This document shows positions 4,487 to 27,619 of a stretch of 33,929 nucleotides of DNA, piece after piece; the first letter of the stretch is position 1, and every line of letters starts with the position of its first letter. Origin of the DNA: Desulfovibrionales bacterium (GTDB lineage Bacteria; Desulfobacterota; Desulfovibrionia; Desulfovibrionales; Desulfovibrionaceae). The notes under the pieces were generated by a model. It did no database searches and was not told where the DNA came from. It saw only the letters and a list, made by a program, of their open reading frames with translations. The position numbers and the translations under genes are program-made. The stretch spans positions 1 to 33,929 of the forward strand of contig JASGMV010000045.1 in NCBI GenBank assembly GCA_030156255.1, given 5' to 3'.

Positions 4487-4561
4487 TGGGGTGTAGCCAA
4501 GTGGTAAGGCAGCGGGTTTTGGTCCCGCCATTCGGGGGTTCAAGTCCTCCCACCCCAGCCA
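4487..4561 (+). tRNA. tRNA-Gln (anticodon UUG)
   Basis: The cloverleaf can be folded by hand. The acceptor stem TGGGGTG (4487-4493) pairs with CACCCCA (4551-4557). The anticodon stem GCGGG/CCCGC encloses the loop TTTTGGT with anticodon TTG at 4519-4521. The T arm contains GGTTCAAGTCC. The discriminator G and the CCA tail (4559-4561) are encoded. It sits between ispE and prs in the same direction and may be processed from their transcript. The prs start lies 52 bases downstream. Confidence 0.96.
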
Positions 4562-7785: not shown

Positions 7786-9201
7786 GTGTCAGTCCGTAAA
7801 AACGCTACACCGTCGAAGCCTGCGGGCAAATTCCGCACCCCGCGCACTTCCCGCAGGCAAGAAGTCCGTCCGCAGGCGGACGTGGAACAAGCACCACAGC
7901 AAAAACAAGACGCCATGGAACGCGAAAAGAAACTTACCACCAACGGCAACGACCTGCATCTATCCGACCTCAAGACCAAAAGCATGGCCGAACTGATGGA
8001 GTTGGCCAAGCAGTATCGCATCGAGAATCCGAGCGGCCTGCGCAAGCAGGAGTTGATTTTCGGGCTGCTGCAACAGTGCGCGTCCCAGAATGGGCAAATT
8101 TTCGGCGAGGGCGTGCTGGAAATCCTTCCCGACGGATTCGGTTTCCTGCGCTCTCCCATGTACAGCTACATGCCCGGACCGGATGACATCTACATCTCTC
8201 CATCCCAAATTCGGCGCTTCGGCCTTCGCAAAGGCGACGTCATCGCGGGGCAAATCCGTCCTCCCAAAGAGGGCGAGCGATACTTCGCCCTGCTGCGGGT
8301 CAACAGCATCGGGTTTGAGCCGCCGGAGCGCTCCAAGCAAGTGGTGCTTTTTGACAACCTGACGCCCATCTATCCCGACCGTCGATTCAAGATGGAAAAC
8401 GGCGATAAAAATTACGTTTCCCGGGTCATCGACTTGCTGGCGCCCATAGGCAGTGGACAGCGCGGCCTCATCGTGGCGCCGCCGCGGACCGGCAAGACAA
8501 TGATGTTGCAGGCGATCGCCAACTCCATCAACGCCAACCATCCGGACGTTTACCTCATCGTGCTGCTCATCGACGAGCGGCCGGAAGAGGTCACGGACAT
8601 GGAGCGCACCGTGCGCGCCGAAGTCGTCAGTTCGACCTTCGACGAGCCCCCCACGCGCCACGTCCAGGTGACGGAAATGGTCTTGGAGAAGGCCAAACGG
8701 CTGGTGGAGCGCAAACGCGACGTGGTGATCCTCTTGGACTCCATTACAAGGCTCGGCCGGGCGTACAACGCCGTTACCCCGTCCTCGGGGCGCGTCCTTT
8801 CCGGCGGACTCGACGCCAACGCCATGCAGCGCCCCAAACGTTTCTTCGGCGCGGCCCGCAACATCGAGGAAGGCGGTAGTCTGACCATCATCGCCACCGC
8901 CCTGATCGACACCGGTTCGCGTATGGACGAAGTGATCTTCGAGGAGTTCAAAGGCACCGGCAACATGGAAATCTACCTTGATCGCCATCTCGCCGAGAAA
9001 CGCATTTTCCCCGCCATCGACATGAACCGCAGCGGCACCCGCAAAGAAGAGCTGCTGCTGGACGACGACGTGCTCAACCGCGTTTGGATTCTGCGCAAGG
9101 TTCTGGCGCCCATGAACTCCATCGACTCCATGGAGTTTCTCCTGGACAAGATGCGCGGCTCCAAGAGCAATCGCGAATTTTTGGACATGATGAACAAGTA
9201 G
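7786..9201 (+). CDS. rho: Transcription termination factor Rho
   Basis: A 471-residue (as drawn) hexameric RNA helicase that ends transcription at rut sites. Domains in order: a basic, low-complexity N-terminal extension (1-55), the Rho N-terminal helix bundle ([17 protein letters not shown]), the cold-shock RNA-binding fold (DGFGFLRSP), then the RecA-like ATPase with Walker A PPRTGKT, Walker [11 protein letters not shown] and the R-loop region. The start is uncertain. GTG 7786 has no clear ribosome-binding site, and the ATG at 7915 (giving 428 residues) is the nearest conventional length; neither has a good Shine-Dalgarno. No other product fits the core. It is preceded by carD and a 200-base structured gap. 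Confidence 0.93.
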
Positions 9202-9662
9202 CCTTCAGTTTTCTTTGGGCCCGCAAGCCGCACAAGTAAACCACCCTCGTCCGGAGGCGCCGAAGGCGCCAGCCGGCTTCTGGCCGCTGGAAAAGAAGCG
9301 TGCGGGCAACCACTTGCAAATTTGAACGCCTCCACCCTCAGGACCCGAACCGCTCTTCGTCGTAATTCGACGGCCTTTCACCCGATAGCCCCGCCGGTGG
9401 AGACGTTTCGCTTGGGTGTCCCCCGTGAACCGGCTCTCGTCGGCTTCATTCCAATTGCCGGGTTTGCGTGCTATCTTCGGTCGCAAGGCGGCTCCCGAGC
9501 CCCAGAGCATCCGTTTGAAATGCTTGCTGAACCGCGGGCGTAGCCCGGTTGTAAGCATTTCGCGGCAAGGATTTGCGAGCAAATTCTTGGAGAGCCTCGC
9601 AATTTTTTCAAAATTGCAAGGCTTGAGCGCCGGAATTTTCAAGGTTCGCCGAGAGCAGTGAC
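9202..9662. other. 461-base gene-free stretch rich in hairpins
   Basis: No convincing gene is seen between rho and the M48 protease gene. Smaller dyads are GGCGCC-GAA-GGCGCC (9256-9270) and CGTCG/CGACG (9358-9372). The right third (9517-9622) holds three long hairpins in tandem, listed separately. A 145-codon minus-strand frame (9205-9642) exists but starts with TTG, lacks a ribosome-binding site and resembles nothing I know. Confidence 0.6.
9517..9622. repeat. Three tandem hairpins (possible structured RNA or palindromic element)
   Basis: Hairpin 1 (9517-9561): GAAATGCTT pairs with AAGCATTTC, with inner AACC/GGTT and GGGC/GCCC. Hairpin 2 (9566-9589): CAAGGATTTGC pairs with GCAAATTCTTG through a 2-base turn and one G-U pair. 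Hairpin 3 (9594-9622): GCCTCGCAATTTT pairs with AAAATTGCAAGGC, 12 of 13 paired, 3-base loop. Only 4 bases separate each from the next. None has a terminator-like T-run outside its stem. They end 40 bases before the M48 start codon. Confidence 0.65.
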
Positions 9663-11108
9663 ATGAAACCCATCTTCCGCGTCGTCTCCGTTTTCGTCGT
9701 ATGGCTGTGCCTGTTGACCGTCGCTTTTCCGCCGCCGGTCATGGGGGCGATTTTCGGCGAGGTCACGGTCCAAGATGAAATGGAAATGGGCAAGAAGTTC
9801 AATGAAATGGTGATGGAGCGCCTGCAACTGGTCTCCGATCCGGAGGTCTTGGGCTACGTGACCGGCGTGGTCAACCGGGTCGTCAAGTCCATGCCGCCCC
9901 AGCCGTTTCCCATCAAGGTGGCGGTGATCAACAATCCGTCCATGAACGCCTTCGCCGTGCCGGGCGGATACGTGTACATATTTACCGGACTCTTGTTGGG
10001 CGTCCATCACGAATCCGAGTTGGCCGGGGTTGTCGGGCACGAACTCGCCCACGTGCATCTTCGCCACGTCGCCCGCCGCATCGAGCATATGCAGCTCGTC
10101 AATCTCGGAGCCCTGGCCGGCGTGTTGGCCGGCGCGTTTTTAGGCGCTGCGACCGGCGGCCAAATGGCGTCCAACCTGGGCGGGGCCTTGATGCTGGGCT
10201 CGCAAGCCGGAGCGGCTTCGGCCTTCCTCGGCTATACCCGCCAGATGGAGCGAGAGGCGGACAACTCCGGTTACCGATTTATGATCGACGCCGGCTATAA
10301 TCCCGAGGGTATCGTTTCGGCCTTTGAGATCATGCGCAAGAAGCAGTGGTACATGGGCGGGGGCAACATCCCATCGTATTTGGCCACGCACCCGGGATTG
10401 AGCGAACGCATCGGCTACGTCAAAGACCGGATTGCGCGAGACGATCCGTCGCTGGCCAAGCGAAAAGACGACGACCAAGCCTTTCTCCGGGTTCAGGCTT
10501 TGTTGCGGGCTCGGGTGGAGGACCCCCAGACGGCCCTGACGTACTACGCCAACATTCCCGAAGCGAACATGACCTGCATGGACCATCTGGGGGTGGGGTT
10601 GACCAACGAGCGCATCCGCAACATGGTAAAGGCCGGCGAGGAGTTGGAAAAGGCCGCGGCCTGCGCTTCCAGCGATCCGGCCGCCAACCGGGAGATAGGT
10701 CGTTTCTGGTTCGAACGCGGGGAGTATCAAAAAGCCGGCCGGTACCTGCAAAAGGCGGTTATTCTCAACCCCCAAGACACCACGGCCATGTACTATTACG
10801 CCCGAATGCTCAGCGAGATTGGCCAGAGCAAGAGTGCGCTGGCTTTCTATAAGCGGATCATTCAGAGCAAGCCCCGCGACGCCAATATTCGTTATCATTA
10901 CGGCCGGGTGCTCGGGGAGCAGGGCCATTATTTCGAGGCGCATCTGCAATTGGCCTACGCCGCTTTGTTCTCCCACGACCTCAAGAAAGCTCGTTTTCAC
11001 ATGGACAAAGCCGCTGCGCTGGCCAAAAGCGACGATGAGAAAAAGGAACTCGAAGAACTGCAAAAAGGATTCGAGGAGCCTAAAAAAGGGGGAGGTGGAC
11101 CTGCTTAA
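9663..11108 (+). CDS. Periplasmic M48-family metalloprotease with TPR repeats (BepA-like)
   Basis: A 481-residue exported zinc protease. Residues 1-30 form a signal peptide (VFVVWLCLLTVAFPPPVMGA). The M48 domain spans about 35-270, with the zinc motif HELAH in VVGHELAHVHLRH and the downstream glutamate in EREADNSG. The preceding SMNAFAVPGGYVYIFTGLL is diagnostic of the family. The C-terminal half (about 280-470) reads as TPR repeats (DPAANREIGRFWFERGEYQKAGRYLQKA and following). This architecture matches E. coli BepA/YfgC, which works on outer-membrane LptD and BAM assembly. The ribosome-binding site is weak (GAGAG). It heads a run of quality-control genes: macro domain, hslV, hslU. Confidence 0.9.
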   Translation: MKPIFRVVSVFVVWLCLLTVAFPPPVMGAIFGEVTVQDEMEMGKKFNEMVMERLQLVSDPEVLGYVTGVVNRVVKSMPPQPFPIKVAVINNPSMNAFAVPGGYVYIFTGLLLGVHHESELAGVVGHELAHVHLRHVARRIEHMQLVNLGALAGVLAGAFLGAATGGQMASNLGGALMLGSQAGAASAFLGYTRQMEREADNSGYRFMIDAGYNPEGIVSAFEIMRKKQWYMGGGNIPSYLATHPGLSERIGYVKDRIARDDPSLAKRKDDDQAFLRVQALLRARVEDPQTALTYYANIPEANMTCMDHLGVGLTNERIRNMVKAGEELEKAAACASSDPAANREIGRFWFERGEYQKAGRYLQKAVILNPQDTTAMYYYARMLSEIGQSKSALAFYKRIIQSKPRDANIRYHYGRVLGEQGHYFEAHLQLAYAALFSHDLKKARFHMDKAAALAKSDDEKKELEELQKGFEEPKKGGGGPA

Positions 11109-19198: not shown

Positions 19199-19236
19199 CG
19201 GAGCATGCGCCGATTCAGGAATCGGCGCATGCTCCG
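19199..19236. repeat. Perfect 18-bp inverted repeat with 2-base centre
   Basis: CGGAGCATGCGCCGATTC (19199-19216) is followed by AG and then its exact reverse complement (19219-19236). No T-run lies on either side, so it is not a standard terminator. It stands 33 bases upstream of the glycosyltransferase gene. It could be a palindromic repeat, a regulator site or a transposon-associated hairpin. Confidence 0.85.
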
Positions 19237-19449: not shown

Positions 19450-19881
19450 CTAATTGTTCAGCTCCCTCAAAATGTTCTGGCACTGGCGAACCTTGAGGGT
19501 GACGCCGTACTGCTCCTTGAGGTGTCGCGACAAGAGTTTGCCGTCCCACCGGGCTTGAGTGTAGCCGAAAAGCTCCGGCGCGCCCGCTACTTCGTCGCGC
19601 ACCTTGTCGCGCAACTCCGTGGACAGGCGGGATGGCCTGCCCCGGCCGGGCTTGTCCTTCAATCCGTCCAGGCCTTCGACGTTCAAGCGATGGATCCAGC
19701 GCTGGATCGTGGTCGGATTGAGGCTGAACAGTTTGGAGACGTAAGGGACGGGATAACCTTCACAAACGAGAAGAATAGCGTCGAGGCGACGGGCGAACCG
19801 GGCCTCGGGGCTGGACGCAAAAAACTTTCTCGCCTCCTTTCTCACGCCTTCCGTGTCAGCGATGGCCAGCATTCTCGGCAT
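19450..19881 (-). CDS. Orphan IS630-type winged helix-turn-helix protein (no DDE domain)
   Basis: A 143-residue DNA-binding protein. Two HTH units are visible: residues about 28-80 (ARRLDAILLVCEGYPVPYVSKLFSLNPTTIQRWIHRLNVEGLDGLKDKPGRGRPSRLS) and a winged-helix unit about 90-143 (LFGYTQARWDGKLLSRHLKEQYGVTLKVRQCQNILREL). This is the N-terminal half of IS630-family transposases. The protein stops just where the DDE endonuclease would begin, and no DDE remnant is readable downstream. An unusually good GGAGGAGG lies 7 bases before the ATG, so it is probably translated. It could be a truncated transposase or a domesticated regulator. It borders an AT-rich patch. Confidence 0.8.
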   Translation of the reverse strand: MPRMLAIADTEGVRKEARKFFASSPEARFARRLDAILLVCEGYPVPYVSKLFSLNPTTIQRWIHRLNVEGLDGLKDKPGRGRPSRLSTELRDKVRDEVAGAPELFGYTQARWDGKLLSRHLKEQYGVTLKVRQCQNILRELNN

Positions 19882-20612
19882 AACAACCTCCTCCTGGTGA
19901 CAGTCCTTCGTTAAAACCCAGCCGCGGGAGCGGCTACCCTGAAACAGCTATAATTGATAGCAGCTTGCGCCGCTTACCTACAATTATATTTAGTTGCATG
20001 AGCCGATGTCGACCCTCAGGGAGCCATCAATTTACAGCCTATCCAGCGACTAGAAGAGTAGCAATTAGAATGTTTGCAAGCCATGATAAATTATAACATC
20101 GCCGTCGAGCGATCATCTATCTTATTGACATCTCTGAATAGAGATCGCTTGAGTGTTTATATTCCACCCAGTAAGTCGGGAGGGCGGCTTTGTCCAGCTC
20201 TGTGCATTAGATTTGTTGAAAACTATTTCTTTTCATGTGTGTATTGATTTTGAAATACACGGAAAGAGAGCGTATATTTGGTGTCTATGTAGTTTAAAAA
20301 TTAAGAAATAAATGTAATAATTTTATACAAAAGTATATTATGGTGTCTATCTTCCCTTGTACATCAATAATTAAAAACAAACAATATGATCAAGATGGAT
20401 TTTGTACAGCAGTATTATATTTTTATAATGATGTTGCAAAACAGAAAAAGAAAAAGACCCTGGCGTGCGTAAGGAAATGTAGGATTCTGGCATTATTGGG
20501 CGCATTGCCGTATGAGATAAAGGCGTATAGGACAAGTGATGCAACGCTCAGGGCGTTGTAACACGGATTCGGATGCGCGAGTGACGTGCAGGTTAGCGAA
20601 CGCTTACTTCTG
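19882..20612. other. 731-base gene-free, largely AT-rich patch
   Basis: From about 19960 to 20460 the base composition is visibly AT-rich, unlike the rest of the window, suggesting foreign origin. It contains the dyads ATCTCT/AGAGAT (20130-20145, directly after a TTGACA), CGAGCGATC/GATCGCTTG (20106-20151), GTGTATT/AATACAC (20239-20260) and CAACGC/GCGTTG (20542-20558). A near-perfect direct repeat ends in GGTGTCTAT (20273-20288 and 20334-20350). A 73-codon frame at 20340-20561 has no ribosome-binding site and no recognisable similarity. I see no gene here. Confidence 0.6.
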
Positions 20613-21512
20613 TCACGACTGTTGTAAAAGCTGCCGGACGCGGCAAACACCGCAGGCGCCGGCCGAAGTCGGCATGCCGCAATATTGGCAGGGAGCCAAC
20701 TGCTCTTTATCGCTGTCTCGGTTTTGAAACGCGGGCCGGCCGCGTTCCAGGAAACCTTCGTAGAAAGATATCTTGGAGCCGGGACTGCGAGCCTCCAGTT
20801 GCGCCAAGAGCGCTTTGTGCGCCGTAAAGCTGGCGCCGCGGCTGTAGGGGCATGGAGCGGTAGTGTATTCGATATCCGTTAAAAAAGCGAAAGCCGCAGT
20901 TTCGAATTCCGAAAGACGATAAAGCGGTTTAATCTTGCGCGCAAAGCCGTTTTCCGCCGGCAGGGAGGGGGATTGCCCCGCCATGTGCGCTTCGTCCCAG
21001 CGAAGCGTATTGGCGAAGAGCCGGGCGGTTTCGTCATCCAGGTTATGCCCGGTGGCCAATACGTCGAAACCCTGCTCCAGAGCGATGCGGTTGAACGCAT
21101 GGCGCTTGATTTTTCCGCAAATGGAGCAGATGGGGCGCTTGACCTTGCGCCGCACCTCCGGAATGGGCAGGCCCCACTCCTCCATGTCGGCCACGATGAG
21201 CCGCAGGCCCCGCCGGCTGCAGAAGTCCTCCACCGTTTTTCTGGCGACGTCCGACGAACCGGGAATCTTGAGGTCCACGTGCAGCCCCACGGGCTGATAG
21301 CCCAGACGCGTCAAGGCCTCCATGAGGGCGAGGGAGTCCTTGCCGCCCGACAGCGCCACCAGAATCTTGTCTTCCGGCAGGATCATCTTCTTGCGCCGAA
21401 TGGCGGTTTCCACCTGCTTCAAAAAGAACTTACGGAAGCAGTCCGGACAAAATCCTGCGTGATGGCTGGGCAGCGCCACGGCCGCCAGCGCTTTGCATCG
21501 ACGACATTTCAC
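20613..21512 (-). CDS. tRNA 2-thiolation ATPase, TtuA/Ncs6 type (PP-loop)
   Basis: A 299-residue PP-loop enzyme of the TIGR00269/TtuA class, which adenylates a tRNA uridine and exchanges oxygen for sulfur. An N-terminal zinc ribbon has C3, C6, C22 and C25. The PP-loop VALSGGKDSLAL lies near residues 53-64. CSICGKIKR and a later APCPYSRG give the Cys-x2-Cys plus distant Cys set expected to hold a [4Fe-4S] cluster. ATGHNLDDETAR is the second ATP-site motif. The C-terminal ribbon is CQYCGMP...CGVC. It starts with GTG 3 bases after the stop of a ubiquitin-like gene, presumably its sulfur carrier. The exact tRNA position modified (U54 for TtuA, U34 for Ncs6) cannot be decided here. Confidence 0.88.
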   Translation of the reverse strand: MKCRRCKALAAVALPSHHAGFCPDCFRKFFLKQVETAIRRKKMILPEDKILVALSGGKDSLALMEALTRLGYQPVGLHVDLKIPGSSDVARKTVEDFCSRRGLRLIVADMEEWGLPIPEVRRKVKRPICSICGKIKRHAFNRIALEQGFDVLATGHNLDDETARLFANTLRWDEAHMAGQSPSLPAENGFARKIKPLYRLSEFETAAFAFLTDIEYTTAPCPYSRGASFTAHKALLAQLEARSPGSKISFYEGFLERGRPAFQNRDSDKEQLAPCQYCGMPTSAGACGVCRVRQLLQQS

Positions 21513-26763: not shown

Positions 26764-26822
26764 GCGTCGCTACACGTTCGAGCATCTATCGCGGCAAGGA
26801 GTTGTGAGTAAATCCTTACCGC

Positions 26823-26836
26823 GCAGGTTAACCTGC
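26823..26836. repeat. 14-bp perfect palindrome between convergent genes
   Basis: GCAGGTTAACCTGC directly abuts the stop codon of the binding-protein gene. There is no T-run on either strand. It could serve as a transcript-end structure for either gene. Confidence 0.5.
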
Positions 26837-27615
26837 TTAGTGCGGCGTCAGCATCATGTCGCCGAACCATTTGCGGAAGATTTTGTTGTACTCCCCGCCT
26901 TCCATCAACTCCAAGAGCGCGATGGACGCCTGTTTCCTCAGCGTGCTCCCCAGAGGGAATGCGAAGCCGTAGAAGTGCGGCCGGTACACGGGGCCCACGA
27001 CTTTGAGCGTTCCTTCGCTTTTGGTCCGGATGTAGTACAGGACCATGGGCAAATCCAGCAACGCCGCTTCGGCCCGGCCGTAGCGCACGGCGTCCAGGGT
27101 TTGTTCGAGTCCGGGATAGAGCTTGATCCTCCCGCTTCCGTAGGAGCCTGCGTTGCCCGCGCCGTAGGAGCGGTTGAGGCTGTCCAGCAATTGCGCGCTG
27201 GTGGAGCCTTCCACCGTAGCCGTCGCCTTGCCGCGCAGGTCCTTGATGGTCTTGATGCTTTCATTGTCCGTGCGCACGGCGATAATGAGCCCCGATTCGA
27301 AGTAGGGCTGCGAAAAGTCCACGATCTTTTCCCGTTGGCTGGTGATGGACAGCGCGCCGATGGCCGCGTCCAGTTCGCCGTTGCGCAAGGCGGGGATGAG
27401 ATGGTCGAAATCCATGGGTTTGAGGGTGTAATCGAGGCCCATTTTATCGGCCATGGCCTTCCAGAGGTCCACATCGAAACCGGCGACGGCCCCATCCAGT
27501 TCGAAATTCATGGGCGCCGCATTCTTGGCGCAGCCCACGGTGATGTTTTGGGCCATGGCCGGAAGGTTGGCCAGGCTCAGCGCCAGCGTCGCCAGAAAAC
27601 CGATGATCCATGGTC

Positions 27616-27619
<4 letters not shown>
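26837..27619 (-). CDS. Periplasmic amino-acid-binding protein (SBP family 3)
   Basis: A 260-residue exported solute-binding protein. Residues 1-24 are a signal peptide (IIGFLATLALSLANLPAMAQ). The mature chain shows ITVGCAKNAAPMNFELDGAVAGFDVDLWKAMADKMGLDYTLKPMDFDHLIPALRNGELDAAIGALSIT, the hallmark of polar-amino-acid ABC transport binding proteins. Here no permease or ATPase gene lies nearby. AAGGAG precedes the ATG, and the ATG overlaps the TGA of the upstream symporter gene (ATGA), so the two are translationally coupled. Ligand unknown. Confidence 0.9.

Follow-up and report, generated by a model that had tools for sequence, protein, structure and literature searches.

The window is a stretch of 33,929 nucleotides from a genome of the Desulfovibrionaceae. 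It carries the gene for transcription termination factor Rho (7786–9201, + strand) and, downstream on the same strand, a gene for an M48 peptidase with TPR repeats (9663–11108). The rho stop codon at 9201 and the M48 ATG at 9663 enclose a gap, 9202–9662, that measures 461 bases, as the original prediction had it. A fold of 9480–9662 recovers three successive hairpins at the place proposed for them (9517–9622), with spans of 9511–9565, 9566–9589 and 9592–9624 on the + strand. The predicted energy is −71.9 kcal/mol, against −60.58 (s.d. 4.42) for shuffles, z = −2.56; the fold beats 197 of 200 dinucleotide shuffles, and three are as good. Hairpin 1 has arms GAAATGCTT and AAGCATTTC with an inner stem-loop around CGGGCGTAGCCCG, and hairpin 2 has arms CAAGGATTTGC and GCAAATTCTTG. 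The inverted-repeat list gives arms of 9 bases (100% complementary), 11 bases (91%) and 14 bases (93%) for hairpins 1, 2 and 3. The range first described ends 40 bases before the M48 gene, and both neighbouring genes lie outside the element.

The boundaries of the feature are better set at 9503–9626 (+), where it matches the whole of model R1 (positions 1–127; 108.9 bits, E = 4.1e-25). From left to right it consists of the following parts: a target dinucleotide at 9503–9504, which reads CA here and TA in intact copies; a left terminal inverted repeat at 9505–9520 (+; GAGCA...TTTGAAA), three bases shorter than in intact copies; the hairpins; a right terminal inverted repeat at 9607–9624 (−), which is the 3' arm of hairpin 3 and whose inner limit is approximate; and a second target dinucleotide at 9625–9626, GA here and TA in intact copies. 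A second, shortened copy lies at 26778–26840 (+). It lacks hairpin 1 and its match is weak alone (25.6 bits, E = 0.0027); hairpins 2 and 3 and both element ends can be recognized in it. The right end of this copy forms the TAA stop codon of a solute-binding-protein gene (26837–27619, −).

Neither strand of 9503–9626 contains a G+C stem with a T tract behind it; in the original prediction, too, none of the hairpins looked like an intrinsic terminator. Over 9100–9800 there is no terminator-like site on the + strand and one on the − strand (9259–9242); likewise, a sigma-70-like promoter is absent from the + strand of this interval and one is present on the − strand. Rfam has no family match to the array and nothing at E ≤ 1 for 9400–9700; in the whole window one match reaches the gathering score, a tRNA (4487–4558).

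The array is one member of a dispersed family. When the home genome (G000; 3.84 Mb, 106 contigs, completeness 99.28) is searched with 9490–9662, diverged copies appear on both strands and across many contigs; their number is a lower bound, as 40 of 96 candidates were scored. Aligned intact copies share sharp ends: they start TA-GAGCA and finish TGCTC-TA. The 25-base left end, allowing three mismatches, is found at 38 places (20 forward, 18 reverse) and the reversed-pattern control at none, which establishes a true repeat rather than a chance resemblance more strongly than the folding z-score does. A covariance model built from 26 copies has at least 113 home matches at E ≤ 0.01 (150 of 1796 candidates scored), some of the weaker ones being the same places on the other strand. 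At E ≤ 1.2e-5 there are at least 83 places, of which 11 are contig-end pieces that may be halves of one another; matches that stop at contig ends are typical of young, assembly-breaking repeats. Some young home copies are at least 95% like the consensus. The element measures about 124 bp plus the duplicated TA, is present in some seventy copies in the home genome and contains no gene. The outer 5 bp of its terminal inverted repeats (GAGCA/TGCTC) are exact in intact copies; otherwise the repeats are imperfect, alike at 16 of 21 consensus positions as counted by eye. Short, non-coding, dispersed in many copies and with fixed ends, the element has the properties of a MITE. The search for copies elsewhere that had been proposed for the array was thus rewarded, in the home genome and in relatives, though for another reason. 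Deletion derivatives also exist: 28-bp forms at three separate sites (L046, L058 and L061) and 64–65-bp forms at two (L056 and L070). They have common junctions at short direct repeats, judged by eye, and all five supply a gene's stop codon.

The family extends, with gaps, beyond the home genome. At least 28 of 149 genomes of the same taxonomic family match the young-copy consensus at E ≤ 0.001, in at least 12 of 44 genera; at most five candidates per genome were scored, so that presence and copy number are lower bounds, and some weak matches span the terminal repeats only. Three family genomes have more than 200 first-look candidates each. Among the genomes compared, no other belongs to the home genus. 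An exact left-end pattern scan of genome contigs, which may leave out records of the home genome, returned 58 stretches, all in three MAGs: Desulfovibrio sp. JAISMK, Desulfovibrio sp. JAITRF and Deltaproteobacteria bacterium JAISBT. JAISMK is very probably genome G140 of the family set and JAISBT genome G062, with copies at identical contig coordinates. To judge by their names, the MAGs may come from termite gut. The same pattern has no match in the viral contigs scanned. Nor is a description of the element family to be found among the listed titles and abstract openings of open-licence papers on Desulfovibrio repeats and MITEs.

The target site is indicated by a repeat in JAISMK that is filled in one copy (L115) and empty in another (L139): GATTGGAATT-[TA-element-TA]-GAAAATATC against GATTGGAATT-TA-GAAAATATC. 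Over 105 aligned bases the two agree at 96. One TA stands in the empty version, so TA is duplicated on insertion; this is one clear empty site, in paralogous repeats of another species, and the window copy now ends in CA and GA. A second apparent empty site (L142 compared with L112) was set aside as ambiguous because its right flank itself resembles an element end. Target preference was assessed in 76 home copies, comprising 72 plus 4 short left-end copies and excluding the 11 contig-end matches and everything above E = 1.2e-5. TA is present at both ends in 21 of these, at the left only in 20, at the right only in 12 and at neither in 23. Among the 21 copies with both TAs, 17 lie in YTAR, for which the background is 0.108 (all TA sites of the same loci, coding included). 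Excerpts from PMC2170065 describe TA target duplication for ISY100 and cite, by its title, the 1991 work of Tenzen and Ohtsubo on the preference of IS630 for the TA in CTAG; the TA and YTAR findings agree with both. An IS5-type MITE with a 4-nt duplication (CTAG or YTAA) was also considered, the comparison being MITEPsy1 as presented in excerpts from PMC3189936. In five copies at TTAA the left target reads TTAG and the right CTAA, so that only TA is duplicated, and this candidate was rejected. At L146 (3473–3722) two copies stand head to tail with one common TA, an arrangement expected to result from insertion of one copy into the TA at the end of its neighbour.

A likely mover is identified by its ends. 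L165, at the start of contig G055:C41 of a relative, is a 998-bp IS630-family element with a transposase in two overlapping frames (DDE_3, 111.9 bits; NCBIfam transpos_IS630, 119.1 bits with a cut-off of 100) and ends TAGAGCATTTTAACTTTGAAAAGTT and TAGAGCATTTTAACTTTGAAATGCT. The young-copy consensus is identical to these ends at 21 of 25 positions on the left and 19 of 20 on the right; the best of 100,000 shuffles reaches 17 of 25 in the left-end control. No counterpart of hairpins 1 and 2 was seen by eye in this insertion sequence. L166 is a second such element, its protein 81% identical to that of L165, and more distant transposase elements with similar ends are L188, L190, L192, L203, L212 and L213. 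Altogether 12 of 33 transposase loci (some being the same place twice) have an end pair better than all 20 shuffles, L195 and L205 among them with other end sequences; the remaining 21, many of them fragments, have no end pair above shuffles. A MITE match is found in 13 of the 17 family genomes with a relative of the transposase and in 15 of the 132 others, a comparison that ignores kinship and takes presence as a lower bound; in one of the 13 (G015) the match spans 24 bases only. In the home genome, orfB of the transposase finds no match at E ≤ 1e-5, the best match of orfA has E = 0.134, and DDE_3 has a single match, below cut-off, so that the mover is known from relatives alone. Young copies at least 95% like the consensus exist there, so loss of the transposase, or its absence from the assembly, would be recent.

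The fixed ends, TA duplication, YTAR preference and ends matching an IS630-family element identify a MITE of IS630 type. The array is very probably an old, decayed copy of such a MITE, of the Tc1/mariner kind, most likely moved by the transposase of a related insertion sequence. The suggestion of a palindromic repeat element in the original prediction therefore holds as to a dispersed repeat; its type is IS630 and not REP. A REP/REPIN-type palindromic repeat mobilized by a RAYT (Y1) transposase would likewise be palindromic, intergenic and present in tens of copies, and the home genome encodes one Y1_Tnp protein (IS200/RAYT-like; G000:C45:663-1019, L292). Y1 elements are not expected to show inverted ends, TA duplication or IS630-like ends. 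The element has all of these, the duplication at the filled and empty pair included, and a REP/REPIN origin is barely conceivable. For the IS630-type MITE the most likely steps are as follows. (i) An IS630-family transposase (Tc1/mariner superfamily) would act in trans, its gene lying on a separate insertion sequence that has the same ends. (ii) The enzyme would bind the terminal repeats of about 20 bp. (iii) The element would be excised. (iv) It would insert at a TA inside a YTAR site, with duplication of the TA. We infer that a transposase of the L165 type moved the family in this way, and that mobilization took place in the ancestor of the window, prior to the loss of the enzyme from it. 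The copy in the window is old, with decayed ends, and as regards the expression of rho and the M48 gene it is most probably an inert passenger.

Elsewhere in the window, 19450–19881 (−) encodes a stand-alone protein of 143 amino acids. Its resemblance to IS630 transposases is confined to their N-terminal helix-turn-helix half and scores 74.5 bits, short of the cut-off (100); to the orfA of L165 it has no BLASTP similarity. A perfect 18-bp inverted repeat with two bases between its arms lies at 19199–19236, beside a glycosyltransferase-like gene. The interval 19950–20500 is A+T-rich and has no called genes; G+C is 0.464 in 20001–21000 and about 0.6 around it.

Gene neighbourhoods bear on a different role, that of a bidirectional transcription terminator or 3'-end protector selected at gene ends. 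By our own codon-model gene calls, the 76 home copies comprise 20 between convergent genes, 40 in tandem settings, 7 between divergent genes, 5 overlapping called genes and 4 without a neighbour. The excess of convergent over divergent settings (binomial p = 0.019) is what such a terminator would give, and in 23 of the 76 copies an element end coincides exactly with the stop codon of a gene next to it. The convergent bias is not repeated in three relatives, where 7 copies are convergent and 11 divergent of 64; this set derives from 106 copies, 84 of which lie in the loci of the three MAGs, with 20 near a locus end dropped. Among the 67 home copies with two intergenic neighbours, 21 supply a stop codon, near the 16.05 (s.d. 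2.35) expected from random choice of TA; the excess is mild and stop-codon targeting is not claimed. The relatives give 17 of 64. A preference for the right end as the stop (16 against 7 in the home genome, where left-end cases are mostly shortened copies) was dropped, as the relatives give 10 right and 7 left of 64. Ten of the genes whose stop codon the element supplies were inspected: some end in complete domains, two lack any domain and the others do not decide the matter. In the L019 gene BPD_transp_1 reaches the last residue and in the L030 gene DUF190 is complete, so these genes were not truncated. With no T-tract terminator in the array, and with the remaining pattern explained by a parasite that avoids 5' regions, as excerpts from PMC3049150 have it for pneumococcal repeats, selection as a terminator is unlikely.

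The hairpins themselves are kept by compensatory change. A set of 35 home copies, chosen as uninterrupted by a contig end and matching at least 86 consensus bases, has 89.5% of cells paired (shuffles 86.0). In this set 18 pairs and 60 cells are changed on both sides (shuffles 10.3 and 21.6; slid partners at most 14 and 25), and 11 of the 18 pairs fall among the 14 of the hairpin 3 main stem. In alignment A2, made up of 26 of these copies, 35 pair cells are changed on both sides and still Watson–Crick, six are changed and not so, and 133 are changed on one side. Covariation was also counted in 105 distinct copies from other genomes (loci L121 and L132 of 58 left out), in an alignment made to fit the structure and therefore biased in its favour. 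Here variation on both sides is seen in 44 of 46 pairs (shuffles 28.3; slid at most 28), 427 cells are changed on both sides (shuffles 96.3), and the covariation score is 0.281 (shuffled 0.101; slid at most 0.064). At the base of hairpin 2, one pair of columns is unpaired in most copies.

Compensatory change was among the evidence that the original prediction had proposed to look for, and two of its three readings were an RNA: a leader controlling the protease and a structured non-coding RNA. A cis-acting leader or attenuator of the M48 gene would suit an array that stops a short way upstream of the M48 start and is flanked by genes of one direction, and covariation of such strength would be expected of a structured RNA, whether it acts in cis or in trans. 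The kinds of mismatch point elsewhere. In an RNA read from a fixed strand, G-U pairs would be tolerated and A-C pairs would not. The counts are equal, 119 G-T and 119 A-C, where columns are at least 70% paired. When all columns are taken, A-C (198) exceeds G-T (123); the excess lies in hairpin 3, two column pairs of which are unpaired in roughly half of the copies. The home copies give G-T:A-C ratios of 29:29, 12:17 and 21:19 for hairpins 1, 2 and 3, the last without four misaligned copies (L018, L034, L043 and L053). No bias appears where the direction of reading is given by the neighbours: 12:12 with both on the element's strand (8 copies) and 22:20 with both on the other strand (11 copies). 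Copies between convergent genes do show more G-T than A-C (21:10, 8 copies), as an RNA would, though no single reading direction applies there; divergent settings give 4:3, and six copies with a missing neighbour 9:25. The same element also adjoins dozens of other genes on both strands and in all the arrangements counted above, which leaves a protease leader unsupported. Together with the lack of an Rfam match and of a + strand promoter, these observations make an RNA of either type very improbable.

Equal numbers of the two mismatches make it more probable that the constraint, or a process of correction, works on DNA or on the two strands in the same way. What it might be can be stated tentatively. 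The hairpins may be a working DNA part, as folded strands or cruciforms that aid movement or survival, or their arms may be corrected by template switching in replication. If the hairpins do work as DNA, selection would act on both strands, and the fold, not the sequence, would define the family. If they work as DNA or are corrected by template switching, the deletion derivatives would be either minimal mobile units or products of recurrent hairpin deletion.

A false lead, the protease leader RNA, is thus removed, and an IS630-type MITE with a likely mover is added for this bacterial family. It offers a tractable case for the question of why mobile DNA keeps hairpins by compensatory change without sign of an RNA strand. 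The element family is new, but the kind to which it belongs is well known. REP/REPIN sequences with RAYT resemble it as many intergenic palindromes, and differ in that the family described here has TA duplication and IS630-like ends, not Y1 features. The Correia/NEMIS elements of Neisseria target TA. By description (excerpts from PMC2229807), they too are short MITEs, with stem-loop transcripts. The pneumococcal BOX repeat, also compared by description, supplies the stop codon of neighbours, in 36 genes, and differs in being modular with ends likened to ISSpn2 (excerpts from PMC3049150). IS630 and ISY100 insertion sequences resemble the family in the TA target duplication (ISY100, excerpts from PMC2170065), and the terminal repeats of the family are shared with the IS630-family element L165, to which the end match applies; the window element has no transposase gene. 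The nearest described kind found is RUP, the repeat unit of pneumococcus, a 107-bp MITE of IS630-Spn1 type with 108–110 copies (excerpts from PMC2229807 and PMC3049150). Compared by description, it has a similar length, IS630-like terminal repeats and a TA target (same excerpts). The hosts are unrelated, and a cognate transposase is not found in the home genome of the window element. The architecture also differs: the terminal repeats of RUP pair together (excerpts from PMC3049150), whereas the window element forms three successive hairpins.
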